DNA from: a virus
DNA: 64,000 bases
Direction: 5' to 3' (one strand)
Virus record (IMG/VR): IMGVR_UViG_3300031231_000003
Span: 60,422-124,421 of that record
Shown here: piece after piece, positions 29,908 to 51,964 of the stretch
How the letters are laid out: every line of letters starts with the position of its first letter
Numbering within the stretch: position 1 is the stretch's first letter
The notes under the pieces: generated by a model
Databases searched by the model: none
Told to the model about the DNA's origin: nothing
The model's input: the letters and a program-made list of their open reading frames with translations, nothing else
Program-made: the position numbers and the translations under genes

Positions 29908-30822
29908 ATGAACACGCTACGCAATTACGTGAGATTGATCCTTTCCGAGAGGATCAGGGCGAAAGATCCTTCCTCTTCGTCTTCACGTAAGGCAACGTTC
30001 AACATGAACGACTTCAAGAAATTGAAGCAAAATGATCCACTAGAAGGAACGTTTTTGAAGTACGCGAAACGCAACCTTCAAAGGTTGGGAGAGGGATCAT
30101 CTCGTGAAGTATTCTTACTTTCATCACAAAAGGTTCTCAAGGTCGCGGTGAACGAAAAAGGTATCGCTCAAAACGAAGCCGAGATTGATGTTTATACGAA
30201 TCCCAAGACTCGACCGATCATATCGAAGGTGTACGATTATGGTTCAGGTTACGAATGGCTCGTATCTGAACTAGTTCGTGAATTGACGTACGAAAAAATC
30301 TGCACTTTGTTGGATCTTGATGGTTCTTGGGACTACATGATCAAGGAACTTATCGTTGATAAAATGCCAATTGATAAACTTGTCAAGCGATACACGGAAA
30401 AAAATTTAAGAGTCAAAGATTCAGGAACTGATGTTCCTGGCTCAGTCGTTGTCGATAAACATGGGAACCACGTAGCAGGACCGTTTTTTTCGCCGCCAGG
30501 CTGGGAACACGATCGCGGAACGCCCGAAGCATTTAAAGCAATCGATGAAATTAACGTACAAAATCCCAAGTTGAAACAATTTCTCATTGCATTGAAACAA
30601 ACGATGGAAGTGAACGAGCTCGAACGCGGAGACATTCAACCCCAACATTTCGGTAAAAGCGCTTCGGGCGACATCGTGCTTCTCGATTACGGGTACACGA
30701 CAACGGTTCTTAAGAATCATTACGGGGGCGGTGATATCAGTTGGGATGATGGTGATGATGACGTTGATCCGTCAAATTCGATATCTGGTCGTGAAACCAC
30801 TCGATCACCCGCGGCAAGTTGA
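29908..30822 (+). CDS. Kinase-like protein with capsid-targeting-like N-terminus (paralog A)
   Basis: 304 residues from ATG 29908. The N-terminus MNTLRNYVRLILSERIRAKD resembles the short leader shared by many head-region proteins. A protein-kinase-like core follows: LGEGSSREVFLLS (Gly-rich loop, about 60), VLKVAVNEKG (Lys, about 77), AQNEAEIDVY (C-helix Glu), EWLVSELV (hinge), ERGDIQPQHFG (catalytic-loop Asp, about 242) and IVLLDYGYT (DFG-like Asp). The catalytic-loop His/Arg is replaced. Its paralog at 51.3 kb has the same order. A Ser/Asp-rich tail ends it. Possible packaged kinase or pseudokinase. Confidence 0.6.
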   Translation: MNTLRNYVRLILSERIRAKDPSSSSSRKATFNMNDFKKLKQNDPLEGTFLKYAKRNLQRLGEGSSREVFLLSSQKVLKVAVNEKGIAQNEAEIDVYTNPKTRPIISKVYDYGSGYEWLVSELVRELTYEKICTLLDLDGSWDYMIKELIVDKMPIDKLVKRYTEKNLRVKDSGTDVPGSVVVDKHGNHVAGPFFSPPGWEHDRGTPEAFKAIDEINVQNPKLKQFLIALKQTMEVNELERGDIQPQHFGKSASGDIVLLDYGYTTTVLKNHYGGGDISWDDGDDDVDPSNSISGRETTRSPAAS

Positions 30823-30855
30823 ACATCAACAACTTAACGTAATACATTAGAAGTA

Positions 30856-31503
30856 ATGCTCAGATTTGCGACGATTGCGGACGTTCACATCCGCTCGTTA
30901 ACACGTCATGATGAGATTCGAGAAGTGTTCAACGCTTTCGTTAAAGACGTGAAGGAACACAACATCGATCACATTTTCATTGGTGGCGACATCGGTCACA
31001 GTAAAACAGCACAATTTTCGGCTGAGTACGTTGATCTCATGGTTGAGCTGATCAACTTGCTTGGCGATACCGCACCGACCCACATGATCTTGGGAAATCA
31101 CGACCTGAACGAGAGAAACAAGATCAGACAGGATGTGATCACACCCGTTTTAAACGCGGTCAAGCACCCAAACGTGCATCTTTACAAGACTAGCGGTGTT
31201 TACAGTATCGCAGAAGGTTGCAATTTGTGCGTCTTTAGCATCTTTGACGAGGAGAATTGGAAAAATGTGGAACCCGTAGAAGGTGACATCAACATCGCTT
31301 GTTATCACGGGGGCGTTTCGGGAGCAAGGACTGAAACTGATTGGGAACTCACGGGAGGTCTGGAATTAGATCATTTTGCTGAATATGATGCAACTTTCCT
31401 CGGTGACATCCACAAATTTCAATGGCTGGATCATCGTGATTTTGAAATTGAAATTGACGAGGATGAGTTAAAAGATTATCCCGGAGCAATTGTGCTTCCA
31501 TGA
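30856..31503 (+). CDS. gp47/Mre11-like nuclease, N-terminal half (split gene)
   Basis: 215 residues. All calcineurin-type phosphoesterase motifs are present: IADVHIRS (D9, H11), FIGGDIGHSK (D45), LGNHDLNE (N81, H82), ACYHGGVSG (H151) and LGDIHKFQW (D184, H186). The protein stops soon after (DYPGAIVLP), where relatives of about 340 residues continue into the capping domain. That missing part is found at the start of the gene at 31711. A PGD-motif gene starts in an ATGA overlap with this stop. The codons for Tyr-Pro-Gly at 31477 are repeated exactly at 31756. Confidence 0.85.
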   Translation: MLRFATIADVHIRSLTRHDEIREVFNAFVKDVKEHNIDHIFIGGDIGHSKTAQFSAEYVDLMVELINLLGDTAPTHMILGNHDLNERNKIRQDVITPVLNAVKHPNVHLYKTSGVYSIAEGCNLCVFSIFDEENWKNVEPVEGDINIACYHGGVSGARTETDWELTGGLELDHFAEYDATFLGDIHKFQWLDHRDFEIEIDEDELKDYPGAIVLP

Positions 31504-31764
31504 AATTTAGTGATCTCAGACCGGGAGATATGTACATCACGTCTGGTTCTACCGTTTATCCTCAGCATGAATCAGCAACCGTTGTAGCCGTAACTGAGAA
31601 TCATATAACGTGGTTGATTACGGAAAATAGATTGACAAAGATCTATCGTTTTAAGAATTTCAATGATCAACCTTTCGATGAAAAGGGAATCACTTGGTTG
31701 AGGGTGAAAAATGTCTAAGAAGATTCGAATTCGTATAAACCGACCGGCGATAGGGTATCCCGGA
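31477..31764. repeat. 9-bp direct repeats flanking the gp47 insertion
   Basis: TATCCCGGA occurs at 31477-31485 (codons Tyr208-Pro-Gly of the gp47 N-half) and at 31756-31764 (codons Tyr16-Pro-Gly of the downstream gp47C-gp46 ORF). The offset is 279 bases, a multiple of three. Removing one repeat and the intervening segment would join the two ORFs in frame. The segment contains the PGD-motif gene. Confidence 0.8.
31500..31718 (+). CDS. Small PGD-motif protein inside the split gp47 (copy 10)
   Basis: 72 residues. N-terminus MKFSDLRPGDMYITSGS is one of the best matches to the family motif. Strands ATVVAVTENHITWLITE and KIYRFKNF follow. It starts in an ATGA overlap with the gp47 N-half and ends 8 bases inside the next ORF. 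It occupies most of the segment between the 9-bp direct repeats, so it appears to be the cargo of the insertion that broke gp47. Confidence 0.75.
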   Translation: MKFSDLRPGDMYITSGSTVYPQHESATVVAVTENHITWLITENRLTKIYRFKNFNDQPFDEKGITWLRVKNV

Positions 31765-34284
31765 TCGATGCTTCAAAATACCTACTCAGAAGATCTGAAG
31801 CATTTTTGGCTGAAATGGGAGTTCAAATCGAGCAACGACTTCACAGTCGTTCCTGTTGAACTTCCGAATCCAAAGCCATTTTTGACAATCGATTGGAACG
31901 GTTCCGTCAATAAAACGGTCGACCAGTTGAAGAACTTCAAGGCTGGTTCAAGGGTTCGTATCAAGTCTGATGCAAAGATCCCACTTAAGTACTCAACGAA
32001 GCTCGTTTCAACGATCAAGAACGAGATGGGAGCATCGGAGGTCATCTTCAAGGAAGAACAGGCAACCGACATCTCTCGAATCAACATGGGTTCCGTTCAG
32101 TTGCTTCGTACGGATCTGAGGAATTCGGACGTATTGTTTCAGCTTTTAAAGGAACATTACAAGTCATCCGAAATGCATGAGGATGAATGGGTGAAGATCT
32201 ACGATCTTCTTCGTAAGTACGTCTCGATTCTCACGAGCGAGGATGTGATGAGGAACGTCAAATGGTCATTGAGAAGACTTCGCTTCAACAACATGTATTC
32301 CTATGGCGAAGATAACACGATCAATTTCGATGCATTGTCGGGCCTCGTAGGTATATTCGGGCCAAACAGAAGCGGCAAGTCTTCAATTCTCGGAACCCTA
32401 ATGTACGGGTTGTTCAATGCGACCGATAGAGGTCCAATCAAGAACATGTTGCTGTGCAACACTCGTAAGCAATCATGCTCATCAAAGATCGTGATCAAGC
32501 TCGGGGGTCGTGATTACCTCGTTGAGCGTTCAACGAACAAGAAGTCGAACAAGCAGGGTGACATCTCCGCCGCGACGAACCTCAGGATTTGGGAACTCAT
32601 CGATGGAAAACCTGTTGAAAGCACGGGGGAGCAACGTTCAGACACCGAGAAAACGCTGAGAAAGCTCATCGGAACGTCGGATGATTTTCATTTGATGTCG
32701 ATATCGACGCAGCGAGATGATAATTCAATCCTCGAACACGGGTCCACGAAAAGACGACAGATCATTTCAAGGTTCCTTGACATTGACGTCCTCCAGCAGA
32801 TCCATGAACTTGCACGTGATGATGTTCGTGAACAAAAAGGTCTCATCAAGAACCTGAACGAGGATTTGAATGAATCAATAAACGATAGACGTAACGTGTC
32901 ATCCAATCTCGATCAACAGATTGAACTCAACGTTTCTAATCTCGAAAGTTCACGTGAAAGGTTGTTCGATCTAAAGACTCAGCTCGCAGCTTTCAAGGGA
33001 TTCAAGCATGTTTCGATCGAGGAGCTCGAATCACACCGTGAATCGATCGACGAGTTGAACGGAAAATTATCGAAGGTTGTTTCAAGCATTGAAAAAGCGG
33101 GAAGGGACTTACAAGAAACGGATGAAAAAATAGAACGTGTTTCGACGGTTCTTCAGGATTACGATCTTGTGACGATGAAGCAACAGCTCGATTCATTCAA
33201 GAAGCTGCGTTCAAGCGTCAATTCGATGCTTCAAGCGTACACGAACGAGAACAACTCGTTCGAACGTAGCAAGAAGACGATCAAGATCCTGCAAGACGTT
33301 CCTTGTGGCGATTCGTTTCCAACGTGTAAGTTCATCAAGGATGCTCATGACCTGAAACCAACGCTGGACGATCAACGTGATCGAGTAAATTCTTTGAAAC
33401 GATCGTACGATGAAGCGAATCAATCGCTCGGCGGTATCGATGAAAAAAAGATGGTCGACAACGTTTCGAAGGTTGAATCGTTGAAGGAAAAACTGGGACA
33501 ATTGAAGTTGAACAAGGCTCAGCTCGAAACCCAATTGACAAGGCTCAATCACAACAGGAACGAGATTCAGCGAACTTTGGACGTTGCGATCAATGAATTC
33601 GAGGATCTCGAATCAAGGACCGACAAAAAGAAGAACGATGAACTGACCTCACTTAAATCATTGATCTTTTCTGCCGAAGCCGGAATATCCGTCTTGGAAA
33701 AAGCGAATATCTCTTTGGCAACACAAAAAGGTAAGATTGAATCCGAGATCGAACGTTTGTTGAAGGATCAAAAGAGACGAATCGATATCCTTCAAAGGAT
33801 GAAGTACCACGAGGTGATCGAATCCAGCTTTTCAAAGAATGGAATTCAGGATGCGATCCTCTCATCAATGCTTCCTGCGATCAATGAAGAGGTTGCAAAG
33901 ATCCTCAATGGAATCGTGAACTTCACCGTTGAGCTCGAGAAGCTACCGAATGATGATCAAATCGACATCTACATAAACTATGGTGATGGTGACAAGAGGG
34001 TTCTCGAACTCGGAAGCGGCATGGAAAAGTTCATCAGTTCAATCGTTCTACGAGTTGCATTGAACAACATCTCCACCTTACCGAAGAGCGATGTGTTCTT
34101 CATCGACGAAGGATTCGGGTCGTTGGATGCGAGCAGCGTGGAGGAGTGTTCAACATTGCTTCAATCTCTGAAGAAGTACTTCAAGACGATCATTGTCATC
34201 ACACACGTTGACGTGATGAAGGACATCGTCGATTCCACGATTGAGATCACACGAAACGGAAAGGACTCACATGTCTCGTGTTGA
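31711..34284 (+). CDS. gp47 C-terminal domain fused to gp46/Rad50-SbcC ATPase
   Basis: 857 residues. Residues 1-190 are not gp46 but the capping part of gp47: RPAIGYPGSMLQNTYSEDL, HFWLKWEF, GSRVRIKSDAKIPL, GASEVIFKEE. From about 192 (VKWSLRRLRFNNMYSYGED) it is the SMC-like ATPase: Walker A FGPNRSGKSS (about 217-225), long coiled coils with a Cys pair in PCGDSFPTCKF (C532, C539) as the zinc-hook position, the ABC signature region LELGSGMEKF, and Walker B VFFIDEGFGSLD (D799, E800). With the N-half of gp47 it should form the recombination nuclease that processes DNA ends. Confidence 0.88.
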   Translation: MSKKIRIRINRPAIGYPGSMLQNTYSEDLKHFWLKWEFKSSNDFTVVPVELPNPKPFLTIDWNGSVNKTVDQLKNFKAGSRVRIKSDAKIPLKYSTKLVSTIKNEMGASEVIFKEEQATDISRINMGSVQLLRTDLRNSDVLFQLLKEHYKSSEMHEDEWVKIYDLLRKYVSILTSEDVMRNVKWSLRRLRFNNMYSYGEDNTINFDALSGLVGIFGPNRSGKSSILGTLMYGLFNATDRGPIKNMLLCNTRKQSCSSKIVIKLGGRDYLVERSTNKKSNKQGDISAATNLRIWELIDGKPVESTGEQRSDTEKTLRKLIGTSDDFHLMSISTQRDDNSILEHGSTKRRQIISRFLDIDVLQQIHELARDDVREQKGLIKNLNEDLNESINDRRNVSSNLDQQIELNVSNLESSRERLFDLKTQLAAFKGFKHVSIEELESHRESIDELNGKLSKVVSSIEKAGRDLQETDEKIERVSTVLQDYDLVTMKQQLDSFKKLRSSVNSMLQAYTNENNSFERSKKTIKILQDVPCGDSFPTCKFIKDAHDLKPTLDDQRDRVNSLKRSYDEANQSLGGIDEKKMVDNVSKVESLKEKLGQLKLNKAQLETQLTRLNHNRNEIQRTLDVAINEFEDLESRTDKKKNDELTSLKSLIFSAEAGISVLEKANISLATQKGKIESEIERLLKDQKRRIDILQRMKYHEVIESSFSKNGIQDAILSSMLPAINEEVAKILNGIVNFTVELEKLPNDDQIDIYINYGDGDKRVLELGSGMEKFISSIVLRVALNNISTLPKSDVFFIDEGFGSLDASSVEECSTLLQSLKKYFKTIIVITHVDVMKDIVDSTIEITRNGKDSHVSC

Positions 34285-34576: not shown

Positions 34577-34577
34577 A

Positions 34578-35162: not shown

Positions 35163-35163
35163 T

Positions 35164-35633: not shown

Positions 35634-35900
35634 ATGAAAATTTCACTGAAACAGCTCAAGTCAATCATTAAGGAAGAAATCTCATACAAGGACGTTGGAG
35701 ACGAACCCGAAGTTTTAGATATGATTTCGTCATTAATCAACGTTGTTGTTGATCAACCTCAATTTCGAATCTTAGCAAAACCAGATCCGAGAGGTCCCAA
35801 TCCAAAAATTGCAAAATTTCGACAAAAACTGTACAATGATATCGCACAATTGATAGATGATTCAATCAATCAGAACTTTAACGGCCCGTATTCAAAGTGA
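35634..35900 (+). CDS. Small head-region protein with capsid-targeting-like leader (1)
   Basis: 88 residues. N-terminus MKISLKQLKSIIKEEISYKD is nearly identical to that of the protein at 63.3 kb and similar to eight or more others. It ends in I-K-E-E, which fits the I/L-x-E cut rule of T4-type prohead proteases; such a protease is encoded at 44.4 kb. The rest is short and helical. Inferred to be carried into the prohead. Confidence 0.6.
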   Translation: MKISLKQLKSIIKEEISYKDVGDEPEVLDMISSLINVVVDQPQFRILAKPDPRGPNPKIAKFRQKLYNDIAQLIDDSINQNFNGPYSK

Positions 35901-35920: not shown

Positions 35921-37522
35921 GTGTTATCAGCGAACGATAAGAGAAATGAAATCATCCGGTGCGGCCGCGACCCGAAGTATTTCATAAAGCGTTATGTTTT
36001 CATCCAGCACCCCACAAAGGGGCGAATTAAGTTCACAACATATCCCTATCAGGACGACGTTGTTGATGCACTTGAAAATCATCGTCACAACATTGTCCTA
36101 AAATCTCGCCAGCTTGGCTTGTCAACGATTGCAGCCGCGTACTCATTGTGGATGGCGGTATTTCACAAGGACAAGAACATCATTGTCATTGCAACGAAGC
36201 TTGAAACGGCTCAGAACTTCGTTAAAAAGGTAAAGATTGCGCTTTTATCATTACCACCATGGCTAGTTCTTCCGAAACACGATGATAAAGCAACGGCACT
36301 TAATTTCGATAACGGATCACGAGTCATTGCAATTCCCGCTTCTGATGATGCGGGACGTTCTGAGGCTATTTCTCTATTGATCGTTGATGAATGTGCATTT
36401 ATCCGCAACTTCGATACCCTTTGGACAGGACTCTCACCAACCATTTCCACCGGTGGAAATGCATTCATACTTTCATCACCCAATGGTGTAGGCGGGCAAT
36501 TTTACAAGTTATGGATCGGTGCTGAAGCAGGACAGAATAACTTCAATCCCATAAAATTGCCTTGGACGGTTCATCCCGAACATGATGAAAAATGGTTCAA
36601 GGAAGAGACAAAAGATCTTACTCGTAAAAAGGTAGCTCAGGAATACATGTGTGACTTCCTCGCATCAGGTGATACCTTCCTGCAAGTCGAAGATCTCGAT
36701 TGGATGAAATCGAAGGTTCGTGAACCATTGCTAAAGACGGGATTTGACCGTAACGTGTGGATATGGGCTCATCCCGAATCTGAAAAACGATACGTCATCT
36801 CAGCCGACATTGCACGCGGCGATTCGCAGGATTTTTCAGCATTCCACGTCATCGATGCTGATGACGGTCAACTCGTCGCTGAGTACATGGGCAAGGCACC
36901 TCCCGAGGTGATGGGACAATTGATGGACGAGTACGGTCGTAAGTACAATATCGCCCTTGCGATCCCTGAAAATAACACTTTCGGTTACATGACCGCAATG
37001 TACTTGAAAGCGAATGGGTACCCTCGTATGTACTACAAGGATCATAAAGGTGATCCATTCAACTTTGTACCAACCGATGACATGTTGCCGGGGTTCTCCA
37101 CACAAACTCATTCACGTCGAAACATTCTCACAAAATTCGAAGAGTTGATCAGAAACAAGATGATCAATTGTCCTTCGTCACGCCTCGTTCAACAATTACA
37201 AGCGTTCGTCTGGCAGAACGCGAAGGCTCAAGCGTTGAAAGATAGTCATGACGACTTGATCATCAGTATTGCAATTGGCATGTACGTCGTTGGAGGAGAA
37301 CTTCAACAGGATTGCAGTCGGACGGATTTGACGGTGGCATTGCTGAATGCGACATCGCGAATGTCGAGAAGTGCAGATGAACTTCCAGGGCTGCGAGATC
37401 TTCCACCACCGATGAACCCTCAAATGATCACGACCACTTTTCAGCAAGTGAGGTCGGGAGAACGCGGAAGGCAATTAGTTCAAACGTTGCATCCCATGTA
37501 CAATTGGCTTGTGGATAAATAA
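35921..37522 (+). CDS. Terminase large subunit, gp17-like
   Basis: 533 residues from GTG 35921 (a TACTTAC box 11 bases upstream, no clear ribosome site). The ATPase domain has NIVLKSRQLGLSTIAAAY (Walker A variant, about 58-70) and ISLLIVDECAFIR (Walker B, about 150-158), then FILSSPNGVGG (coupling motif). The nuclease domain has RYVISADIARGDSQDFSAFH (about 289), ALAIPENNTFG and KDSHDDLIISIAIG with the late acidic residues. All are in the order of T4 gp17. It packages DNA through the portal encoded 2 kb downstream. Confidence 0.93.
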   Translation: MLSANDKRNEIIRCGRDPKYFIKRYVFIQHPTKGRIKFTTYPYQDDVVDALENHRHNIVLKSRQLGLSTIAAAYSLWMAVFHKDKNIIVIATKLETAQNFVKKVKIALLSLPPWLVLPKHDDKATALNFDNGSRVIAIPASDDAGRSEAISLLIVDECAFIRNFDTLWTGLSPTISTGGNAFILSSPNGVGGQFYKLWIGAEAGQNNFNPIKLPWTVHPEHDEKWFKEETKDLTRKKVAQEYMCDFLASGDTFLQVEDLDWMKSKVREPLLKTGFDRNVWIWAHPESEKRYVISADIARGDSQDFSAFHVIDADDGQLVAEYMGKAPPEVMGQLMDEYGRKYNIALAIPENNTFGYMTAMYLKANGYPRMYYKDHKGDPFNFVPTDDMLPGFSTQTHSRRNILTKFEELIRNKMINCPSSRLVQQLQAFVWQNAKAQALKDSHDDLIISIAIGMYVVGGELQQDCSRTDLTVALLNATSRMSRSADELPGLRDLPPPMNPQMITTTFQQVRSGERGRQLVQTLHPMYNWLVDK

Positions 37523-37573: not shown

Positions 37574-38224
37574 ATGAAATCGAAAACAATTTCTTACAAG
37601 ATCTCCGAGGATCGTCTCAAGGAAATAATCGCCGAGGAATTGCAACGTAAGTTGCAGCTCGCGGAGAACCCTGATTCACTCACTGAAGACATCGATCACG
37701 AAGGTGCCGCAACGGTCTCTAAGGCTTCTTCGAAGCTTCTGAAAGCTCTTGCATCGTTTAAAGAAGATGCTAATGGCGGAATGCAAAGTGCTACGACGCC
37801 GCATCTCGATGCACTCGTGTCGACGCTTGAAGCGATGGTACAGAATCCCGCGAACTACACTGATAAGGTAAAGGTTGAACCGAAGCGAGTGAAGCTTCGT
37901 AAGGTTGAAGAAACCTTGCGCTCAAAATTCGATTCAAAAAAGCTTGCGGAATCTCGCTATAACTGGAAACCTGAGGCGATTGAGTTCATGAAGGATCTTC
38001 TTCGTACGAAGACTAAAACGGTTCCTGTGGGTTCAAATCAAACGAAGATCGCTGATACACTTCAGGACGTGAACATGATTCGGATGAAGAAACATTTCAA
38101 GGGTCCGTCGGGTCTCGTTGTCGTGTACGAACCGACACAAGAAGGGCTGGAAGAATTCGACAAGTACAGAACTTCATCGATGACGTCAAAGAAACCACAG
38201 GTTGAAAAGGTAAGCGAACAATGA
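37574..38224 (+). CDS. Head-region protein with capsid-targeting-like leader (2)
   Basis: 216 residues from ATG 37574. ISEDRLKEIIAEELQRKLQL near the N-terminus is a variant of the shared leader, preceded by about nine extra residues. The remainder is Lys/Glu-rich and helical with no known domain. Its stop overlaps the ATG of the next gene (ATGA). Probably an internal-head or scaffold-associated protein. Confidence 0.55.
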   Translation: MKSKTISYKISEDRLKEIIAEELQRKLQLAENPDSLTEDIDHEGAATVSKASSKLLKALASFKEDANGGMQSATTPHLDALVSTLEAMVQNPANYTDKVKVEPKRVKLRKVEETLRSKFDSKKLAESRYNWKPEAIEFMKDLLRTKTKTVPVGSNQTKIADTLQDVNMIRMKKHFKGPSGLVVVYEPTQEGLEEFDKYRTSSMTSKKPQVEKVSEQ

Positions 38225-39198
38225 AAATCACACTCAATGAATTAAGGCGAATTATTCGTGAAGAAAGCTCTCGTGGATGGGGTTCGAAACGACGCAAAGG
38301 TAAGGATCCCGCACAGTACGATGCAAACCGTGAAATAAACCGCGATGCGGATTGGGCGGTGGATCAGCTCAAATCAAAGGGTGGGATGTACGATGATTTG
38401 AATGATCGTGGTAATCAAAGAACGAGATTCAATAAATTGAGTCGTCAAGTCGATATGCCGTCACATCCAAATCGGGGTCTTCCTGGCCACGATGATGGTT
38501 GCAAGAACTGCGGCATGAAAGTTTCATTGCTTCCCAATGGTAAATGTGAAGATTGCGATTTCATGAACAATGAATCACGATCATGGGATGGTTACGAGCC
38601 TCGCTCATTATCAGATGGTGATGAAACATGCGAACTTTGTGGTTGCGAGGATGTTTCATTGACACCCAACGGTTTATGTGATGATTGTGATGACGCTGAA
38701 AACGGTCTAACCGAGGCGAAAGAAACTGAGACGACAATTGAAGCCACCGAGGAAGAAATCGACAAGCGAATCTCATCCATGGACGCTGATACGATTGTCG
38801 ACAAGGATTACATCGATTCACATACGGGCGAAGTTTACCTTGAAATTGGTGATCGAGCGGGGGACTCTCAATTTCATCCTTCGTACGTTCCAAAAACGTA
38901 TCGCGGCGAGAGCCCCGTCGATGTCTCATTTGATGATGATGATTTTCCCGATTACGAGGAAGAGGATCATGAATCGAACCTAGTATACGATACGTTCGTA
39001 TCTCAGGTTGATAAGTTCGTTGCAGACCTTGATCTGTCAGAACACGGTGCTGGCCCGGAAGATACTGCTCCCGAATACGCTCGTGTGTTCTTACACATGC
39101 ATCCCGAATGGAATGATAACAAGAAGCTCGGAATGAGCAGGCGACAGATCATCGATTACATCGCTAACTTAGCATTCGAAAAGTATGGAAACCGCTGA
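38221..39198 (+). CDS. Head-region protein: leader plus two zinc ribbons
   Basis: 325 residues. Leader MKITLNELRRIIREESSRGW, then a basic low-complexity stretch. Two similar zinc ribbons follow at about 98-117 and 138-157: CKNCGMKVSLLPNGKCEDC and CELCGCEDVSLTPNGLCDDC. A very acidic segment (DDDDFPDYEEEDHE) and a folded-looking end (GMSRRQIIDYIANLAFEKYG) complete it. Zinc ribbons and an acidic tail in a putative packaged protein suggest nucleic-acid or RNA polymerase binding, but that is inference. Confidence 0.55.
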   Translation: MKITLNELRRIIREESSRGWGSKRRKGKDPAQYDANREINRDADWAVDQLKSKGGMYDDLNDRGNQRTRFNKLSRQVDMPSHPNRGLPGHDDGCKNCGMKVSLLPNGKCEDCDFMNNESRSWDGYEPRSLSDGDETCELCGCEDVSLTPNGLCDDCDDAENGLTEAKETETTIEATEEEIDKRISSMDADTIVDKDYIDSHTGEVYLEIGDRAGDSQFHPSYVPKTYRGESPVDVSFDDDDFPDYEEEDHESNLVYDTFVSQVDKFVADLDLSEHGAGPEDTAPEYARVFLHMHPEWNDNKKLGMSRRQIIDYIANLAFEKYGNR

Positions 39199-39242: not shown

Positions 39243-39455
39243 ATGAAACTATCATTAAAACAATTAAGAAACCTGATCAACGAAGAGATTAAATCAAAGA
39301 GCGGAGGGGTTCACCTTTCAACACTCGAATCAATCAATCCTCGTGCATACGAAGGATGGATTGAAATGCTCGTTGAAGATTGTAGTGATGAATTCATTGT
39401 TAACTCAAAGAAGGAAATTCGCGTCAAGACTCGTAATGGTGTTGGGAACCACTAA
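39243..39455 (+). CDS. Small head-region protein with capsid-targeting-like leader (3)
   Basis: 70 residues from ATG 39243 with a GGGAGAG ribosome site. MKLSLKQLRNLINEEIKSKS is a clear copy of the shared leader. The rest (INPRAYEGWIEMLVEDCSDE) is unrecognised. Located just before the portal gene. Confidence 0.6.
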   Translation: MKLSLKQLRNLINEEIKSKSGGVHLSTLESINPRAYEGWIEMLVEDCSDEFIVNSKKEIRVKTRNGVGNH

Positions 39456-39554: not shown

Positions 39555-42500
39555 ATGGCAAACAAGCAATTAAAAGGATCAGAATCGCCCGAGAAGTTCT
39601 TTAAAAGAATGACTCGTATCTTCAAGAGCGGCGTTCAGGTCAAGCGAAAGATTCGTGCTCAAGATACCGCCGTCGTCGTTGCCGATAAGACGAAATCGTC
39701 TGGAACGTTGCTGTTTCAGAAGTCGTTCTCTCCAACGTACGCTTCAATCACGAGCAATGCTTACAACATCGCTGAGCGTCAAGTTCGTTACCAGGATTTT
39801 CAGCAGATGGAACAGACTGCTGAGATCGCTGCTGCCTTGGATCTATGGGCGGATGAATCTTCAAGTCCTGATGAACACGGGCGAGCTTTGCACATCTTTT
39901 CTGACAACGAGAAGATCAAGCAGGTTCTTGATGACCTGTTCTACAATCGATTGAACATCGAATTCAACCTTAGAAGTTGGGTTCGATCATGTTGCAAGTT
40001 CGGTGACTTTTTTCTATTGAATGACGTGCATCCTACTGAGGGTGTCGTTCATGCGTACCCAATTCCAGTCAATGAGATCGAACGCGAGGAAGGGTACGAC
40101 CGCGATGATCCAATGGCGGTTCGCTTTCGCTGGGTCTCGCTTGGTAATAGGATCCTACAGAACTGGGAAGTATCTCATTTCAGGTTGCTAGGAAATGATT
40201 CGTTCCTGCCATATGGTTGCTCGGTCATTGAAGCAGCAAGACGTGTGTGGCGTCAATTGATCCTCATTGAGGATGCGATGCTTGTCTACCGTGTCACAAG
40301 GGCACCCGAACGTCGAGTGTTCTACATCGATGTCGGTAACCTCCCAGCGAACGACATTCCTGCGTACGTTGAAGCTCAAAAGCAAGCGCTTCGAATGAAT
40401 CAGGTGCTTGATTCACAGACGAGCCGGGTTGATCTTCGTTATAATCCACTTCCAGTACATAAGGATACACCAATTCCATTACTTGATGGAACGACGTTGA
40501 CGATTGAGAATCTTTCGAACAAAATGAAGGAGAATTCCAATTGGACACCTTGGGTTTACTCGATACAAGACAAGTCGCTTCGTATTGTTCCAGGTAAGGT
40601 CACCTGGTGCGATAGGAATTACGTTGCGAAGAAGCTGGTGAAGGTTTGGCTTGACAACGATTCGTACGTTCTCACCGCTCCAGAACACCCATTTGTGCTG
40701 AGGGATGGATCAAGCAAGAGAGCTGATGAGTTGGTGGTGGGTCAGGCTTTGATGCCATTTTACAGGGAACTAAGTGTTTTTAAGGAAAAAGTTGATGGTA
40801 CAGATGATTTAGACGGATATGAAAAAATTTATGATCCAAAAACTCAAAGATTCGTTTATACACACCGTCGTGTTGCTGAAATTTTATCTCAACCAATAAC
40901 CTTACCCGAAGGAAATAATAATTGGGTAACTCATCATGTTGATTTTAACAGGTTAAATAACGATCCTTCGAATTTATTGAGAATGGGAAATGTAGATCAC
41001 TGGTATTTACATGCGTCTGAAATTACACGATACAATAAATCTGATCTTAAGAAAGAACGAACATCAAAGAACAACATTGAACGAAATTCAGTTGGTGCCA
41101 TGTCTTGGTACAACGGTTCGGATCTTCACAAGTCTCATAATGAGAATCGTAAGATCGGTCAATTGAAAGATTGGGGAGATCAAGAAAAGAAAACTCAACG
41201 AAAGTTGAACATGCAATGGAAAATTCCGAACGAGATGATCGAGAAGATCAGTGATCTCATTCGAAAGGATCCAAAAATTTCTCGGGTTAAAATTCACGAA
41301 GAGATCAAGAATGATCAAGAATTGATGAACGCATTGATGTCGATTCAAACGCCTGCAAGAGATGTTTCAAAGTTCAGTTATCAAGGCTGGATGTGCGAAT
41401 TTCAACGAAGAGGTCAAGGTAATGGATTTACTCAAATTCGTGAAGCTGTGTTGAATTACAAGAATCACAAGGTTTCTAAGATTGAATTCTTGGACGTTGA
41501 CGGCGAAGACGTCTATTGCATGACCGTTGTTGGTTCCGCCGGTGAAGACGATAGACACAATTTTATGGTCCTCGGGTTGAATGAGGATGGATCTCAATCA
41601 GATTCTGGTGTTTCATTATGGAACAGTGTAGACGAAGATTATTTCATTCCTATTCGTGGAAGCGACACAGGTACCAAGATCGACACACTCGCTGCGGGGC
41701 AGAATACAGGAACCGTTGAAGACGTTGCTTACATTCAAAAGAAACTGTTCGCAGCCCTCAAGATTCCAAAGGCTTACCTTGGTTACGAAGAAGGTCTGAG
41801 TTCTAAGAGCACGTTGGCACAGATGGACATTCGATTCTCTCGTTCAGTCTCCGTAATTCAACGCACATTCATTGCGGAACTGAATAAACTCGCAATCATT
41901 CACTTGTTCACGCTCGGATTTCAGAACGAGGATCTTGCTAACTTCACGTTGCACTTGTCTAATCCGTCAACCGTCGCGGAGCAACAAAAGCTCGAACTTT
42001 GGCGGACCAGATTCGAAATTGGGGGTTCGTTACCCGAAGGTATGGGAACGAAGCAATTCGTTTACAAGACAATCTGGGGTCTCAATGACGATGAGATCGA
42101 CCAGATCAACAACGACCGTGTCAAGGAAACCCTTGTGGATGCCACAATCGCTGCGATGGCAGAAGGTGGAGAAGCTTCCGGCCCCGGAGGCGGTGGAGGT
42201 GGTGGCGGGGGAGCACCTGCAGGTGGAGGATTCGATCTTGATGCCGGTGGCGAGGATGAGGACATCTTTAGCGATGACGATGCAGGTGGAAGCGCGGATG
42301 ATTCTGGTGGTGAGGATGAGATCCCTGACGAGGAGAACGCAGGTCCCGAACCTCTCGAGGATGAGGATCCCGATTTGGAATTATTGACATCGAGCGATGA
42401 TCAGGATGATCCCGAGACGTTCAAGATTCCTTCAATGAGGGATTCACCCGTGAAGGTTGCAAAGCAACTGCAGAAATCGCTTTACAACAGATCACGTCAT

Positions 42501-42854
42501 CGTACACATGGTCCATCAAAGACTCACATGCCCGACTTTCTAGGCATGGTGAACAACAAACGTCGCGAAGATACAATGAACGACCCGTACGATACGAATG
42601 CAATGAAGGCACTTATCACGAATCCGTTCGGTGAATCAATTCGCAGGCCAAATGCGATATTGACGAATGATATCATGAGTGCGTTGAACAACATGAAACG
42701 TGAACACGATTCCGATCGTGTCGCAAAAGGTGGTACGTTGTTGTTGAATGAAGGTGATGAAGGTGTCGAAATTGAACTTGACGACTCGACGTCTGATGAC
42801 GATGAACTATCGTTGCAAGAACAAGTATTCCATAATGAAAGAGAAGAAGAATAA
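39555..42854 (+). CDS. Portal protein, gp20-like, with intein-like insert
   Basis: 1099 residues. The N-terminal extein (1-299) has the gp20-type pattern (AEIAAALDLWADESSSPDE, HFRLLGND, ERRVFYIDVGNLPA). A Hint/HNH insert occupies about 300-690. The portal then resumes with SVDEDYFIPIRGSDTGTKID, DVAYIQKKLFAALKIPKAYL and FIAELNKLAIIHLF. The C-terminus is Gly-rich and acidic (around 870-950), typical of this portal group. Without the insert it is about 708 residues. It forms the dodecameric DNA gate on which terminase docks. If the insert does not splice out, the portal would be non-functional, so splicing or an intact second gene is expected. Confidence 0.9.
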   Translation: MANKQLKGSESPEKFFKRMTRIFKSGVQVKRKIRAQDTAVVVADKTKSSGTLLFQKSFSPTYASITSNAYNIAERQVRYQDFQQMEQTAEIAAALDLWADESSSPDEHGRALHIFSDNEKIKQVLDDLFYNRLNIEFNLRSWVRSCCKFGDFFLLNDVHPTEGVVHAYPIPVNEIEREEGYDRDDPMAVRFRWVSLGNRILQNWEVSHFRLLGNDSFLPYGCSVIEAARRVWRQLILIEDAMLVYRVTRAPERRVFYIDVGNLPANDIPAYVEAQKQALRMNQVLDSQTSRVDLRYNPLPVHKDTPIPLLDGTTLTIENLSNKMKENSNWTPWVYSIQDKSLRIVPGKVTWCDRNYVAKKLVKVWLDNDSYVLTAPEHPFVLRDGSSKRADELVVGQALMPFYRELSVFKEKVDGTDDLDGYEKIYDPKTQRFVYTHRRVAEILSQPITLPEGNNNWVTHHVDFNRLNNDPSNLLRMGNVDHWYLHASEITRYNKSDLKKERTSKNNIERNSVGAMSWYNGSDLHKSHNENRKIGQLKDWGDQEKKTQRKLNMQWKIPNEMIEKISDLIRKDPKISRVKIHEEIKNDQELMNALMSIQTPARDVSKFSYQGWMCEFQRRGQGNGFTQIREAVLNYKNHKVSKIEFLDVDGEDVYCMTVVGSAGEDDRHNFMVLGLNEDGSQSDSGVSLWNSVDEDYFIPIRGSDTGTKIDTLAAGQNTGTVEDVAYIQKKLFAALKIPKAYLGYEEGLSSKSTLAQMDIRFSRSVSVIQRTFIAELNKLAIIHLFTLGFQNEDLANFTLHLSNPSTVAEQQKLELWRTRFEIGGSLPEGMGTKQFVYKTIWGLNDDEIDQINNDRVKETLVDATIAAMAEGGEASGPGGGGGGGGGAPAGGGFDLDAGGEDEDIFSDDDAGGSADDSGGEDEIPDEENAGPEPLEDEDPDLELLTSSDDQDDPETFKIPSMRDSPVKVAKQLQKSLYNRSRHRTHGPSKTHMPDFLGMVNNKRREDTMNDPYDTNAMKALITNPFGESIRRPNAILTNDIMSALNNMKREHDSDRVAKGGTLLLNEGDEGVEIELDDSTSDDDELSLQEQVFHNEREEE
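40452..41624 (+). mobile_element. Intein-like Hint domain with HNH endonuclease in portal
   Basis: About residues 300-690 of the portal ORF. The start region VHKDTPIPLLDGTTLTIENL is a block-A pattern but without Cys/Ser at position 1. Block B reads YVLTAPEHPFVLRDG (T and H in place). The middle holds an HNH-like segment (NNWVTHHVDFNRLNNDPSNL, then LRMGNVDHWYLHA). Block F reads DVYCMTVVGSAGEDDRHNFM with Cys where class 1 inteins have Asp. The end is GVSLWN followed by Ser, so Asn-Ser at the junction but Trp instead of the penultimate His. The boundaries are inferred from the restored portal sequence. Confidence 0.7.
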
Positions 42855-43973: not shown

Positions 43974-44372
43974 ATGAACGGATCGAATCTTTTGCGTAAA
44001 TTCATTTGTGAAGCAATCAGCGACAGCGTTCGTGAACGTGCGAACGGATTCATTGACGAGGCTGTTCAACTTTCGAACGACATCGCGGAAGGTGACAAAC
44101 ATTCTATCAAGCAACTTCAGCACGTTGCAAAGGAAATGGAAAGCTTGACGAGCTTTTTCAAGCGAAACGATGAATTGATGAACACGGCATTCAATCGTTT
44201 GCTCGAACAGGTGAACAAGATGGTGAAGATGACGAGCTTTTGGAATCGTCCACTTGCGATTGGAAAGCAAGCGTACTTTGAGAAGTTGAACGATCAAGCT
44301 GCGAACATCGAACACGAAGCATCGATCACGAAACATTTAATGGAGAAGGTGAAGAAACACAAGGTCTGGTGA
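43974..44372 (+). CDS. Helical head-region protein, possible core/scaffold
   Basis: 132 residues. N-terminus NGSNLLRKFICEAISDSVRE resembles the shared leader (I-C-E as possible cut). The rest is entirely helical and Lys/Glu/Gln-rich. It lies between small leader proteins and the protease, the place of core proteins in T4-like genomes. The function is inferred from position only. Confidence 0.5.
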   Translation: MNGSNLLRKFICEAISDSVRERANGFIDEAVQLSNDIAEGDKHSIKQLQHVAKEMESLTSFFKRNDELMNTAFNRLLEQVNKMVKMTSFWNRPLAIGKQAYFEKLNDQAANIEHEASITKHLMEKVKKHKVW

Positions 44373-44429: not shown

Positions 44430-45032
44430 ATGAACGAGCAACGGATCATCACATCATACGAGGATTTCACCCCCGAAGTTATCACAGAAGCCATTACGGG
44501 AACTGATAGAAAAAAGATGATTCTTAAGGGAATTCTTCAGCGTTCGGATAGTGTCAACCAGAACGGCAGGATCTATACGAGAGCGATACTTGAGCGCGAG
44601 ATCAGGAATTACCAGAAGTTCATTCTTGAAAATCGAGCATTGGGAGAACTTGATCATCCGTCCGAAAGTGTTGTTGAACTTAAGAATGTTTCGCACATCG
44701 TGCGTAAAGCTGAGATGGATGACAAGGGAGTCGTTACCGGTTTGATTGAATTGTTAGACACCCCTTGCGGGAAGATTGCACAGAGCTTGGTCGAAAGCGG
44801 TGTAAAAATTGGCATCTCATCACGTGGAGTGGGGTCAACAACAAAGAAAGGGGACTATCAAGAGGTCTCTTCCGACTACATTCTCATATGTTTTGACCTC
44901 GTCGTAGACCCAAGTACCCCCAATGCGTTCATGATCCCAGAAGGTAGAAAAATTTCTACAAAGGAATATGAAAAAATTCTAACTCGTTCTGATCGCCTCT
45001 CTAGGCTGATGAACGAGATTCTGATCAAGTGA
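44430..45032 (+). CDS. Prohead core protease, gp21-like
   Basis: 200 residues. MILKGILQRSDSVNQNGRIY at the start, ENRALGELDHPSESVVEL (catalytic His region), GIELLDTPCGK-type strand, and VKIGISSRGVGSTTKKGD (catalytic Ser region) are the S78/gp21 pattern, followed by LICFDLVVDPSTPNAFM. It is expected to mature the prohead by cutting after I/L-x-E sites, such as those at the ends of the shared leaders. ATAATTACTTGTT lies directly before the ATG and there is no ribosome site. Confidence 0.9.
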   Translation: MNEQRIITSYEDFTPEVITEAITGTDRKKMILKGILQRSDSVNQNGRIYTRAILEREIRNYQKFILENRALGELDHPSESVVELKNVSHIVRKAEMDDKGVVTGLIELLDTPCGKIAQSLVESGVKIGISSRGVGSTTKKGDYQEVSSDYILICFDLVVDPSTPNAFMIPEGRKISTKEYEKILTRSDRLSRLMNEILIK

Positions 45033-48236: not shown

Positions 48237-48728
48237 TCAGAATTGGAGGATCCAATTGTCGGCACGGAGGGTACAAGAAATTTCCGTGGGTTCATGAGTA
48301 TCGTAACTAAGTTCTCCAAAGTTGACCTCAGTCGCCCAGACGCCTTTTCCGTCCCATAAACTGACCACTGTACCTACCGGGTCCAACAATTTAAGTTGGA
48401 CATCCCTCTTGTAAAAGTCAGCATACCCCGCTCGTCCCGAAACTGATTCGTAACAGAGTCTCAACCATTCCATCGTTTGCTGTGCCGCGGAAGGAGCAAT
48501 CGGATCGTGAAGCGTGATTTGAACCGGTCCGAACGTGGTCTTACCAGCAAGGTAACGGTGAGCGTTGATGAATGGTATTGGAACCTCTTCCGTGGTCACG
48601 GTAGGTTGCTGCGCGGTCTTAAGCAAGAATGCATCGATGCCTTCGATCATGAACACCCACCTATTCTTTTGCTTGGGCTGAAATTGATTCGGTAACATTG
48701 ACGTAACATCTAGGGTTTCTGCGGCCAT
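48237..48728 (-). CDS. Tail tube protein, gp19-like
   Basis: 163 residues from ATG 48728 with a strong AGGAG ribosome site. PKQKNRWVFMIEGIDAFLLK, TTEEVPIPFINAHRYLAG, VQITLHDPIAPSAAQQTMEW and KLLDPVGTVVSLW are typical of the gp19 tail-tube family (a single beta-barrel that stacks as hexamers inside the sheath). It confirms a contractile or long-tail myovirus-type particle. Flanked on both sides by paralogous homing endonucleases. Confidence 0.9.
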   Translation of the reverse strand: MAAETLDVTSMLPNQFQPKQKNRWVFMIEGIDAFLLKTAQQPTVTTEEVPIPFINAHRYLAGKTTFGPVQITLHDPIAPSAAQQTMEWLRLCYESVSGRAGYADFYKRDVQLKLLDPVGTVVSLWDGKGVWATEVNFGELSYDTHEPTEISCTLRADNWILQF

Positions 48729-48819
48729 ATTGGAATTCTCCTACGAATAGTTAGGTAACAATTATTGTTTACGACCATTTACAAAGTTTTTTTGGTAATT
48801 ACCTATTCATGATAACCGT

Positions 48820-50601
48820 ATGATCCAATTGAATGAAGTTACGTGGTCTCGAATTTGTCCAACTTGTGATCAACCAACAACACATAAAAATCGTGCAAAA
48901 TGTCTTTGTGCGGAAAAACTAAAAACGACATGTTCAAGTTGTTCTGCAAAGCAACGAGGAAAGAAAAGATCGGCACATGATTTATGTCCAATTTGTAAGA
49001 ACGAATTTAGAGTCCTTGATGTTCAAGAACACTCTGAACTACATTCAACGACGCCTCAATTACTTTGGTTGTTAAAACATTCATGTGAAATTCCTAAGTG
49101 TCGATGTGGTTGTGGTGAATCAACGAACTGGGCAAATTGGAAAAAAGGCTTCAGTGAATTCTTGAACGGTCATAACGGAAGTATTTACACGTCCTACGAC
49201 CTGCAAAAAGCTAAAGAAATTAGTGATAAAAGAAGATCAAAATTGATCGGGAAAGTTGGTTGGGCCAAGAACCAAACGATGGAAAATAACACAATAATTA
49301 AAAATCGTGCTCAAGCATCCGCAGCCGGAATACGCAAAACATTTGCTGAAGGTCGAATCGCCTGGTCAAAAGGATTGACGAAAGAAACCAATCCTGCCGT
49401 AGCCAGCATGGCTAAAAATTTAAAGGAGGGGTTCGCGAATGGAACGTACAAGCCGTGGGCAAAAGGATTGACGAAGGAAACAAATCCAACCCTTGCAACC
49501 ATGGCAATGAATGTTTCTTTTGCATTAAAACAAAAGGAATTGCATGAACGGCTAACAATCATTAAAAGATTGACTAAAAGCGAAATTTTAGATCGAATCA
49601 AAACCAACAGCAGCATCGAATTGCTTGATGATCTTTCACCGTATTTGTCGTTGACATCGACAAACATAAACGTTAAATGCAAACTTTGCAATGAAACGTT
49701 TAAATCATCAATCAATAATCTTGTAAGTGGAAACCGGTGTTACATTTGTTCTCCCGCTTGGATCTCATCTGGACAATCTGAAATCATCAATTTCGTCAAA
49801 AGTTTGAATTTTTCACCTCTGGTAAATGACAGATCAGCGATTAGTCCTCTTGAGCTTGACATATATGTACCAGAACGTCGATTCGCAATCGAATACAATG
49901 GCCTGTATTGGCATTCCGAGCTGAATAAAAGTGCAATTTACCATGACAACAAGACGAACAAATGCCTTACGAGTGATGTTCGTTTATTTCATGTTTTTCA
50001 AGATGAATGGGGAGAAAAATCAGACATCGTTAAAAGCATGATCAAGCATCGTTTGGGAATTTTTGATCGTGTAATTGGGGCTCGTAAATGCACGATACAT
50101 GTTTTAAACAACAGGCAACGAATAGAATTTTTTGAAAAAAATCACATTGATGATGATTCATCCGCAGGAATGTGTTTGGGTTTAATTCACAACGATGAAT
50201 TAGTGGCCGCATTATCATTACGAAAAGCGTTTCATAAAAAATACGAAGACGCTCTCGAGGTTGCTAGATTTTGCACTAAAACGTTCACAGCCGTGCCAGG
50301 TGCTTTGAGTCGTTTAACTTCACATGCTAAAATTTATGCAAGTTCGATGGGATACAAGCGATTGATCACTTACGTTGATTCAAGATTAGGAACCGGTGAA
50401 GCTTATAAAAAAGCTGGATTTTCCCTTGTGTCAAACACAAAACCTCGATTCTGGTGGACTGACATGAAGTACCGTTTCAATCGTTTCAAGTTCCGTGCCG
50501 ATCCAAAAAACAACATGACGGAGGCTCAGGTTGCTGGGGAAGCGGGTGTAGTGAAAATTTGGGGGTGCAAGAATTACGTGTTCGAGCTCATCATTGAATG
50601 A
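48820..50601 (+). CDS. Giant homing endonuclease, Hef-like (paralog 2)
   Basis: 593 residues, same architecture as the minus-strand gene at 46.5-48.2 kb: zinc modules (CPTCDQPTTHKNRAKC, CPICKNEFRVLD, CRCGCGESTNWANWKKG), NUMOD-like repeats (WSKGLTKETNPAVASM, WAKGLTKETNPTLATM), a second ribbon, nuclease (LELDIYVPERRFAIEYNGLY, then WHSE), and the C-terminal GNAT-like domain (HNDELVAALSLRK, TYVDSRLGTGEAYKKAGF). It diverges from the tail-tube gene across a 92-base gap. Confidence 0.82.
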   Translation: MIQLNEVTWSRICPTCDQPTTHKNRAKCLCAEKLKTTCSSCSAKQRGKKRSAHDLCPICKNEFRVLDVQEHSELHSTTPQLLWLLKHSCEIPKCRCGCGESTNWANWKKGFSEFLNGHNGSIYTSYDLQKAKEISDKRRSKLIGKVGWAKNQTMENNTIIKNRAQASAAGIRKTFAEGRIAWSKGLTKETNPAVASMAKNLKEGFANGTYKPWAKGLTKETNPTLATMAMNVSFALKQKELHERLTIIKRLTKSEILDRIKTNSSIELLDDLSPYLSLTSTNINVKCKLCNETFKSSINNLVSGNRCYICSPAWISSGQSEIINFVKSLNFSPLVNDRSAISPLELDIYVPERRFAIEYNGLYWHSELNKSAIYHDNKTNKCLTSDVRLFHVFQDEWGEKSDIVKSMIKHRLGIFDRVIGARKCTIHVLNNRQRIEFFEKNHIDDDSSAGMCLGLIHNDELVAALSLRKAFHKKYEDALEVARFCTKTFTAVPGALSRLTSHAKIYASSMGYKRLITYVDSRLGTGEAYKKAGFSLVSNTKPRFWWTDMKYRFNRFKFRADPKNNMTEAQVAGEAGVVKIWGCKNYVFELIIE

Positions 50602-50657
50602 TCAAACATTCCTGACTTCGTTCCGCATGTTGTGTTAGGATACATGTTAAACCTCAC

Positions 50658-50843
50658 ATGATGTTCAAAGATCTCCAGCCAGGAAATTTGTTGGTTTATG
50701 GCAATGTTCTACTTGTTCTTTCGATAGAATCTAAAAAGCACTCGTGTGGAATGACAATCTCGTACCTGGGAAACTATGGCGTGTTTCGTCAAGTGTACCA
50801 TCAAGAATCTTGCATAGATCAATCAATACGAGTCGTTAAATGA
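50658..50843 (+). CDS. Small PGD-motif protein (copy 13)
   Basis: 61 residues from ATG 50658 or 50661. MFKDLQPGNLLVYGNVLLVL has Asn in place of the motif Asp; GMTISYLGNYG follows. Coupled by an ATGA overlap to the next copy. Confidence 0.65.
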   Translation: MMFKDLQPGNLLVYGNVLLVLSIESKKHSCGMTISYLGNYGVFRQVYHQESCIDQSIRVVK

Positions 50844-51079
50844 CTTACGGTGAACTCGTTCCGGGTGACTTGCTCATCAATGACGCTCTTGGTACCATCA
50901 TCGTCATAGCAATTGATACCACAACCGTGTTGTTCGGGAACGATACTTCGGCACATATCAAACTATCGTTCCTTAGTACCTATAAGTCAATGTTCAACGT
51001 TCACATGCCATCGATGCAACATTGCACGAGCTTCGTTCGTTCAACAACTATACAACCCTCGTTGTCAAAAAAGAGGTAG
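50840..51079 (+). CDS. Small PGD-motif protein (copy 14)
   Basis: 79 residues. MTYGELVPGDLLINDALGTI is a clear match; IIVIAIDTTTVLFGND follows. The last 79 bases overlap the minus-strand copy 15 antisense. The region of overlap encodes a Ser/Thr/Gln-rich end that is probably non-essential in one of the two. Confidence 0.65.
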   Translation: MTYGELVPGDLLINDALGTIIVIAIDTTTVLFGNDTSAHIKLSFLSTYKSMFNVHMPSMQHCTSFVRSTTIQPSLSKKR

Positions 51080-51249
51080 TTTTTCAACGAACCGTCCACT
51101 GTTAAGACTGAAATGCTTCTATCGAACGCATTGCACCGCGTCTTTTGGTTTGCAATGACGAGACCTTGCATGTCACGAGCTGAGTGAATTAGAACGTCGC
51201 CTGGCTGAAGATCTTTGATCAATAACTGCAATCGTAGTACCTCGGCCAC
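51001..51249 (-). CDS. Small PGD-motif protein (copy 15, antisense overlap)
   Basis: 82 residues from GTG 51249; a TTG at 51222 would give LIKDLQPGDVLIHSARDM, aligned with the other copies, and may be the real start. GLVIANQKTR, SISVLTVDGSLKNYLFFD follow. The gene runs head-to-head with the kinase-like gene at 51275 and tail-to-tail with copy 14. Confidence 0.65.
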   Translation of the reverse strand: MAEVLRLQLLIKDLQPGDVLIHSARDMQGLVIANQKTRCNAFDRSISVLTVDGSLKNYLFFDNEGCIVVERTKLVQCCIDGM

Positions 51250-51274
51250 AATTTTATCTTACATACTTATCGAC

Positions 51275-51964
51275 GTGAATGCGTTGAAATTGTACGTACA
51301 AAACGTCTTGAATGAAAGAATCCGCTCGACAAGTGTGACATCTCCCCACGGTGATCTGAACGTGGGACCGTTCAAGCTTGAACAATTCAAGAAAATGAGC
51401 GGGCTTGCACAGATGCAAAATTACGTTGTTAAACGTCTTGAGTACGTTGCTGAGGGATCATCACGGCAGACATTCGTTTTAACGAGCACAAAGGTTCTAA
51501 AACTTGCCATCAATCGAGCAGGAATTGCTCAAAACGAGCAAGAGGTTGAGGTATTCACGGATCCTCGAACAAAAGATATCACGACTCGTATTTACGAGTA
51601 CGATCCCGACTTTTTTTGGATCGTGAGCGAGCTTGTCAAACCATTCGATGACAAGGATGACATTGAAGAATTTCTTGACGTTAGAATGCCGAATGCGACC
51701 GTTACAGCGGTCGATTTTTACGATTTTGTACTTGACGCAAGCGTCGGTGATGAACCATCGTATGAATCGCGTGCAAAGCTTCCCAACAGGGTAAAACAGG
51801 ATTTAGAACGCATTGCAAAGATGATTGAAGATCTTGTCGATCATCATAACATGTTGCCGGGTGATCTTGCGAAGGAATCTTCGTGGGGAAGATCATCTGA
51901 TGGACGTCTTGTGTTGTTGGATTACGGATTCACGCATCGTGTTAGAAATGATCACTATACATGA
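51275..51964 (+). CDS. Kinase-like protein with capsid-targeting-like N-terminus (paralog B)
   Basis: 229 residues from GTG 51275; longer in-frame starts run into the divergent gene and are rejected because VNALKLYVQNVLNERIRS aligns with the start of paralog A. Kinase-like elements: YVAEGSSRQTFVLTS (Gly loop), VLKLAINRAGIAQ (Lys), NEQEVEVF (Glu), FFWIVSELVK (hinge), LPGDLAKESS (catalytic-loop Asp) and LVLLDYGFTH (DFG-like). It lacks the 50-residue insert and acidic tail of paralog A. A TACTTAT box ends 4 bases before the GTG. Confidence 0.6.
   Translation: MNALKLYVQNVLNERIRSTSVTSPHGDLNVGPFKLEQFKKMSGLAQMQNYVVKRLEYVAEGSSRQTFVLTSTKVLKLAINRAGIAQNEQEVEVFTDPRTKDITTRIYEYDPDFFWIVSELVKPFDDKDDIEEFLDVRMPNATVTAVDFYDFVLDASVGDEPSYESRAKLPNRVKQDLERIAKMIEDLVDHHNMLPGDLAKESSWGRSSDGRLVLLDYGFTHRVRNDHYT

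Follow-up and report, generated by a model that had tools for sequence, protein, structure and literature searches.

Two paralogous kinase-fold proteins with a predicted prohead-protease leader as candidate packaged effectors of a T4-like phage

The DNA window analysed here comprises 64,000 nucleotides, bases 60422-124421 of the 124,421-base IMG/VR record IMGVR_UViG_3300031231_000003 (a contig labelled G000), and encodes two proteins, K1 (from position 29908 of the window) and K2 (from 51275), which, judged from their sequences, are small kinase-fold enzymes with an apparently intact active site and a predicted activity. Both begin with a short leader that ends in a predicted prohead-protease site. 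From comparison with relatives we infer capsid targeting, cleavage, packaging, ejection and phosphotransfer to host proteins, and we consider it fairly probable that the whole chain holds, i.e., that K1 and K2 are capsid-targeted, protease-released and ejected kinases of an uncultured T4-like phage.

K1 and K2 are paralogues (BLASTP: 31% identity over 275 columns, E 3e-33) and the only members of their family found in the 124-kb contig. An earlier note, made from the letters of the window alone, had described a paralogous pair sharing EGSSR, VLK, NExE, SELV, GD and LDYG motifs, and this description was borne out: every motif is present in both proteins and is kept across relatives, apart from the precise letters of the hinge and the leader. 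K1 has an alternative GTG start at 29905, which adds one residue, and the mechanical open reading frame (ORF) of K2 begins upstream at TTG 51215. Profile-based scans of the viral collection recovered 56 loci of the family, with cultured relatives in XacN1, Slicko01, RaK2, Munch, PBECO4-type and RM378 phages, and phrog_4301 (unknown function, without a Pfam model) was matched by both K1 (E 5.9e-16) and K2 (E 3.6e-19). Neither protein had any match in a Pfam search, PF00069 included, and PF00069 was weakly matched by 3 of 36 family members (best E 3e-4). When 36 relatives were aligned, G61, R64, K76, Q86, N87, E90, D197, G205, D216 and G218 (K2 numbering) were invariant, with G61 lying in the Gly-rich loop GxGSSR and Q86 and N87 in the family signature KGIAQNxxE. 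The site of the metal-binding Asn, six residues beyond the catalytic Asp, was occupied by His in 27 members, Ser in 4 (K2 included), Asn in 4 and Gln in 1; Asn is kept in XacN1, Slicko01, RaK2 and Munch, and His is found in most of the main clade. At the two positions before the catalytic Asp (D-2 and D-1) this alignment held no conserved His; the His of the HRD motif is missing. Outside phages, the relatives that a scan of bacterial genomes recovered were all leaderless proteins of about 158 aa from clostridia; these stand-alone proteins (L122-L131) carry KNRAGIAQNxxE and IIDYGFT.

Structure prediction pointed the same way. The AlphaFold2 model of K2 (31 sequences) reached a predicted local distance difference test (pLDDT) score of 85 and a predicted template modelling (pTM) score of 0.83, and that of K1 reached pLDDT 76 and pTM 0.71, with disordered inserts and tail. 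All 50 of the top Foldseek rows against the PDB belonged to the kinase-like superfamily (best E 2.7e-4), in agreement with the kinase-like character given to both proteins in the earlier note, and matches included the aminoglycoside phosphotransferase (APH) APH(2''), methylthioribose kinase, PRPK/Bud32, LicA, PurC/SAICAR synthetase and protein kinases. With VIA-align, K2 scored about equally against MPS1 (3wzk; Z 8.2, root mean square deviation (rmsd) 4.0 Å, 135 aligned), APH (4de4_B; Z 8.2, rmsd 4.5 Å, 141 aligned) and PRPK (7szc_A; Z 7.9, rmsd 4.7 Å, 148 aligned), and K1 gave Z about 8-9 to kinases, APH, PRPK and PurC. For K2, the top VIA-align rows likewise all came from the kinase-like superfamily. 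As a Z of 8 is by itself close to the background of this tool, we base the assignment on the fold and the invariant motifs taken together. In the catalytic loop and DFG region, the family profile also aligned with solved kinases, mainly p21-activated kinases (PAKs), at marginal E-values, its best match overall (E 0.0045) being to the N-lobe of a non-PAK kinase and the PAKs having E 0.4 and above. The C-lobe of K2 is minimal because the chain stops 11 residues beyond DYG. Overall, these models support, for both K1 and K2, a kinase fold of small size in which the C-lobe is minimal.

The evidence for packaging lies in the leader, which is common to the two proteins (MNTLRNYVRLILSERIR in K1 and (V)NALKLYVQNVLNERIR in K2). 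In the family alignment, positions 1-18 are conserved and are followed by a more variable basic/Ser linker, with the domain starting at about residue 33; correspondingly, the K2 model shows the leader as a helix (residues 2-14) tethered by a low-confidence linker. T4 gp21 cuts after L/I-x-E (PMC9026906), and T4 Alt and the internal proteins reach the prohead via such short propeptides (PMC9026906; PMC7411985). An L/I-x-E was found within residues 4-24 in all 39 leader-bearing members, often twice, and [LI]xE occurred in 12.7% of same-length windows elsewhere in those proteins, a contrast that is descriptive, with an inflated P value, as the 39 members are related. The T4-type prohead core protease encoded at 44430 is the predicted processor of the leaders, and a protease of this type was detected in 13 of the 15 kinase-bearing records, the remaining two being short fragments. 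Major capsid proteins (MCPs) of relatives carry a similar L-x-E in their N-terminal propeptide region, a putative cut site (e.g., LLKE↓SNAL, the arrow marking the cut). The earlier note had also likened the 17-residue leader to that of a head protein: the leader itself is shared and conserved, and its likeness to a head-protein leader is weak, with no T4-type (Gp23) MCP found on the contig. By eye, the nearest candidate for such likeness is the ORF at 43974 (MNGSNLLRKFICEAISD), which showed no convincing family match and which, from its position and sequence, is a possible prohead core protein.

Relatives further suggest that such leaders may act as an address. In the cultured Alishewanella phage Slicko01 (L114-L116), eight adjacent genes on the minus strand (85888-91558) share one leader, which reads MKIYNLYSTLLE↓AP in the kinase and mostly MKI[DE]xLYES[LIM][LIV]xE in the seven other genes of the row; the leader occurs a ninth time at 97101. 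Among these leader proteins is an ART-PolyVal ADP-ribosyltransferase (ART; E 2e-11), of the enzyme class to which T4 Alt belongs, and several others are ART-like by eye. On a profile of the eight other leader proteins, seven of which adjoin the kinase, the kinase scored 13.0, ranking second of the 187 proteins outside the profile set, and the remaining proteome averaged -18.1 (sd 6.7). The eight-gene row looks like a packaged-effector cassette. In another relative (L054), the kinase leader (MKLTEFEIKKLINEE; MKLTxxExxKLINEE) is of the MKIT type, which is borne by at least nine unrelated proteins of our contig (see below), and an ART-PolyVal-like protein of a further contig (G006; E 4e-5, below the curated cut-off) begins with MKLTLGEVRQIVRRALLTE. 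A third line of evidence is that homologues in RaK2- and Munch-type phages and in clostridia are leaderless.

We propose the following sequence of events. The first ~14 residues would form an amphipathic helix that serves as a capsid-targeting sequence and brings the kinase into the prohead core, where the gp21-type protease would cut after L/I-x-E (L-S-E↓R in K1 and L-N-E↓R in K2). The freed kinase would then remain in the head alongside the DNA and, at infection, be ejected with the genome, so that host targets could be phosphorylated ahead of phage gene expression, much as T4 Alt modifies its targets with ADP-ribose. The earlier note had already suggested Alt-like packaging and injection; this proposal now has comparative support (the L/I-x-E sites, the protease and the leader of the Slicko01 ART). 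The closeness of the kinase gene to the MCP gene in three of six large relatives (see below) also speaks for it.

Several observations weigh against packaging. The second L/I-x-E site has Met or Val instead of Leu/Ile at P3 in many members, and K1 is flanked by a primase-like ORF and one resembling gp47/gp46 (read by eye), replication/recombination-type neighbours that lead one to expect early or middle expression. The T4-type late promoter TATAAATA was absent from the window, and sigma-70-like sites in it occurred at chance level. Within the contig, K1 and K2 do not share a leader type with the MKIT proteins, as judged by a position-specific score, and in XacN1 a strict DNA pattern found no second protein with the leader of its kinase. 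Virion mass spectrometry covering any leader-bearing member was not found in the literature, and published proteomics offer no proof of packaging: the RaK2 paper is silent on the homologue gp356 (leaderless), the XacN1 paper does not name ORF170 in its text and gives its virion list as a figure, and CBB_444, the leaderless homologue of CBB, is unmentioned in the published account.

The alternative that survives best is that the kinase is produced during infection without ever being packaged; its leader would then be an amphipathic helix that docks to a complex of the phage or the host, or else a regulatory segment that a host protease releases. Homologues in RaK2-, Munch- and fENko-type phages are leaderless, and the fENko kinase lies within the terminal repeat, which suggests early expression; in the fENko record, proteins identified by liquid chromatography-tandem mass spectrometry are flagged beside the kinase and the kinase itself is unflagged. 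The replication-type cluster around K1 fits this explanation as well. It does not readily account for an L/I-x-E in every leader-bearing member, for the leader that the Slicko01 kinase has in common with ART-type proteins or for the exchange of the L054 kinase leader for the tag of another lineage, and the leaderless members are the early-looking ones, as would be expected if packaging is tied to the leader. We regard an unpackaged kinase as rather unlikely, and capsid targeting as the better explanation.

We consider it slightly less probable still that the kinase is packaged and has weak or other chemistry, as a pseudokinase, an AMPylator or a small-molecule phosphotransferase. The replaced catalytic-loop Asn and the missing HRD His would fit such a role, and the best Foldseek matches include small-molecule kinases (APH and methylthioribose kinase). 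Set against this, none of the 36 members departs from the Lys, the Glu, the catalytic Asp or the DYG Asp, which makes a pseudokinase or a SelO-like AMPylator, both left open in the earlier note, less likely, and since XacN1, Slicko01, RaK2 and Munch retain the Asn, the normal chemistry of the fold would be ancestral or convergently kept. In SelO-type AMPylators the catalytic Asp is lost; here it is retained as D197 throughout the alignment. No SelO model appeared among the Pfam matches of the 36 members at E 0.1, and SelO was not among the top structural matches of K1 and K2 from Foldseek or VIA-align, a result that does not by itself exclude it.

It is improbable that the kinase is associated with the prohead core or scaffold and phosphorylates head proteins during assembly instead of host proteins: the kinase gene lies near the MCP gene in 3 of 6 large relatives (5, 8 and 15 kb away on the same strand; ~48-52 kb in the other three), and small acidic proteins with a kinase-like leader recall a prohead core protein, but the genes that adjoin the Slicko01 kinase and share its leader are effector-like (ADP-ribosyltransferase) and not head parts, and leaderless members are known from phages whose head type is the same and from clostridial genomes. 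The small proteins in question (L006 13899-14138, L040 near 8789 and L106 6793-7017, all on the minus strand) are ~75 aa long, with a leader of the form ILRKYIRNLIEEVR and an acidic middle.

Table 1. Positions of K1, K2, their active-site residues and neighbouring features in the window (↓, predicted cut)
Feature	Position	Strand	Basis or remark
K1 kinase-fold protein, 304 aa, leader and Gly/Asp-rich C-terminal tail	29908..30822	+	ATG start
K1 leader MNTLRNYVRLILSE	29908..29949	+	predicted prohead-protease site after L12-S13-E14
K1 beta3 lysine K78 (VLK)	30139..30141	+	invariant in alignment
K1 helix-C glutamate E92 (NExE)	30181..30183	+	invariant
K1 catalytic-loop aspartate D242 (GD)	30631..30633	+	invariant
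K1 D-Y-G (DFG counterpart), D260-G262	30685..30693	+	D and G invariant
88-aa protein, leader MKISLKQLKSIIKE↓E	35634..35900	+	
Terminase large subunit	35921..37522	+	phrog_2 E 5e-50
325-aa protein, leader MKITLNELRRIIRE↓E	38221..39198	+	
70-aa protein, leader MKLSLKQLRNLINE↓E	39243..39455	+	
Portal protein with HNH-containing insert	39555..42854	+	phrog_213 E 4e-59; HNH matches
132-aa ORF between portal and protease, leader-like N-terminus MNGSNLLRKFICEAISD	43974..44372	+	position and sequence
T4-type prohead core protease (gp21-like, Peptidase_S77)	44430..45032	+	PF03420 E 1.4e-21; phrog_207 E 9e-47
K2 kinase-fold protein, 229 aa	51275..51964	+	GTG start; C-terminus 11 residues past DYG
K2 leader (V)NALKLYVQNVLNE	51275..51316	+	predicted prohead-protease site after L12-N13-E14
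K2 beta3 lysine K76	51500..51502	+	invariant
K2 helix-C glutamate E90	51542..51544	+	invariant
K2 catalytic aspartate D197	51863..51865	+	invariant
K2 D-Y-G, D216-G218	51920..51928	+	D and G invariant
144-aa protein, leader MKIAKNELKNLIKE	62012..62446	+	
127-aa protein, leader MKISLKQLKQIIKE↓E	63321..63704	+	

The second leader of the contig, MKITxxQLxxIIxEE (more fully MK[IL][TS]LxQLxxIIxEE), is borne by at least nine unrelated proteins, five in the window (Table 1) and others at 1093, 7555, 7736, 8179 and 8366 of stretch L017. Their mature parts show no mutual homology, and the synonymous codons of the leader vary freely, which rules out conservation as a DNA signal. On a score built from these leaders, K1 and K2 ranked 13 and 29 of 162; as their leaders are not recognisably of the MKIT type, the link between leader and address in this contig rests on relatives. 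The strict MKIT leader was found on at least 177 ORFs in at least 120 viral contig stretches, and a gp21-type protease was present in 9 of the 14 MKIT-leader contigs tested; no kinase homologue was found in the 14 such contigs searched at E 0.001. The MKIT-tagged proteins could not be recognised as known effectors, as 2 of the 53 scanned had a Pfam match at E 0.001 (FliG_C and DUF6745). No phage-related paper containing the strict MKIT string was found.

K2 is located in the structural, late-looking half of the contig, next to a Ser/Ala-rich, highly repetitive fibre-like protein of 2461 aa (52883-60268). The HNH insert of the portal gene is probably an intein. Among the relatives, two kinase-bearing contigs encode a protein with a DFDDTL motif, as in phosphatases of the haloacid dehalogenase (HAD) type, and a leader-like N-terminus (L051 2427-3023, minus strand; L053 19491-20060, plus strand), with no Pfam match above cut-off. 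A further relative (L064 6323-10624) contains an ORF of 1434 aa that has a C-terminal kinase domain and repeated domains with boundaries reading L-x-E (LNE↓GIADILKYYP and LDE↓MAYP); it is possibly an effector polyprotein processed by the prohead protease.

Taken more broadly, we tentatively suggest, as something a little short of an even chance, that lineage-specific N-terminal tags cut by gp21-type proteases are a general loading code for swappable packaged effectors in large uncultured T4-like phages, and that K1 and K2 represent the first head-packaged kinase family delivered in this way. The effectors may comprise kinases, ADP-ribosyltransferases, possible HAD-type phosphatases and many orphan proteins. 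If K1 and K2 are indeed packaged and injected, T4-like phages can deliver phosphorylation, like ADP-ribosylation, in ready-made form before any of their genes is expressed, and the leader tag offers a sequence-only route to listing candidate packaged effectors in uncultured phages. Slicko01, which is in culture and shows this arrangement as well, makes packaging directly testable. In the literature searched, we found no stand-alone kinase family that bears a T4-type leader and falls outside Kinase-PolyVal.

Packaged effectors with cleaved leaders are already known from T4, namely Alt and the internal proteins (IPI-III). K1 and K2 resemble these in having a short N-terminal propeptide (~10-20 residues) with L/I-x-E at its end and a T4-type prohead protease in the genome, and, as with Alt, the enzyme could modify host proteins on entry; they differ in having a kinase fold instead of that of an ADP-ribosyltransferase, in a leader sequence unlike that of T4 and in a virion location that is so far predicted. 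Packaged kinase domains have been predicted in polyvalent proteins (Kinase-PolyVal, PF18762; Iyer et al. 2017, PMC5512222), and K1 and K2 share with them the predicted packaging, a much reduced C-lobe and an intact set of active-site residues. Membership of that family was rejected, as PF18762 had no match at E 10 in 14 records, G000 included, and K1 and K2, unlike Kinase-PolyVal, are stand-alone and small, have a capsid-type leader, belong to T4-like phages and lack a conserved His before the catalytic Asp. The 'putative protein kinase' of RaK2- and Munch-type jumbo phages (phrog_4301) belongs to the same family as K1 and K2, and the RaK2 protein H6X4G3 (BFVD) has the same fold (E 1.7e-11); these members differ in having no leader and in keeping the catalytic-loop Asn. 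T7 gp0.7, which resembles K1 and K2 as a phage kinase acting on host proteins, is made after infection and is not known to be packaged. Phosphorylation of host proteins by gp0.7 has been described (cited in PMC5512222). Finally, PRPK/Bud32 and the aminoglycoside phosphotransferases have their fold and small size in common with K1 and K2, which differ from them in sequence (12-16% identity) and in their signature (KGIAQNxxE, HWG and DYGFT).

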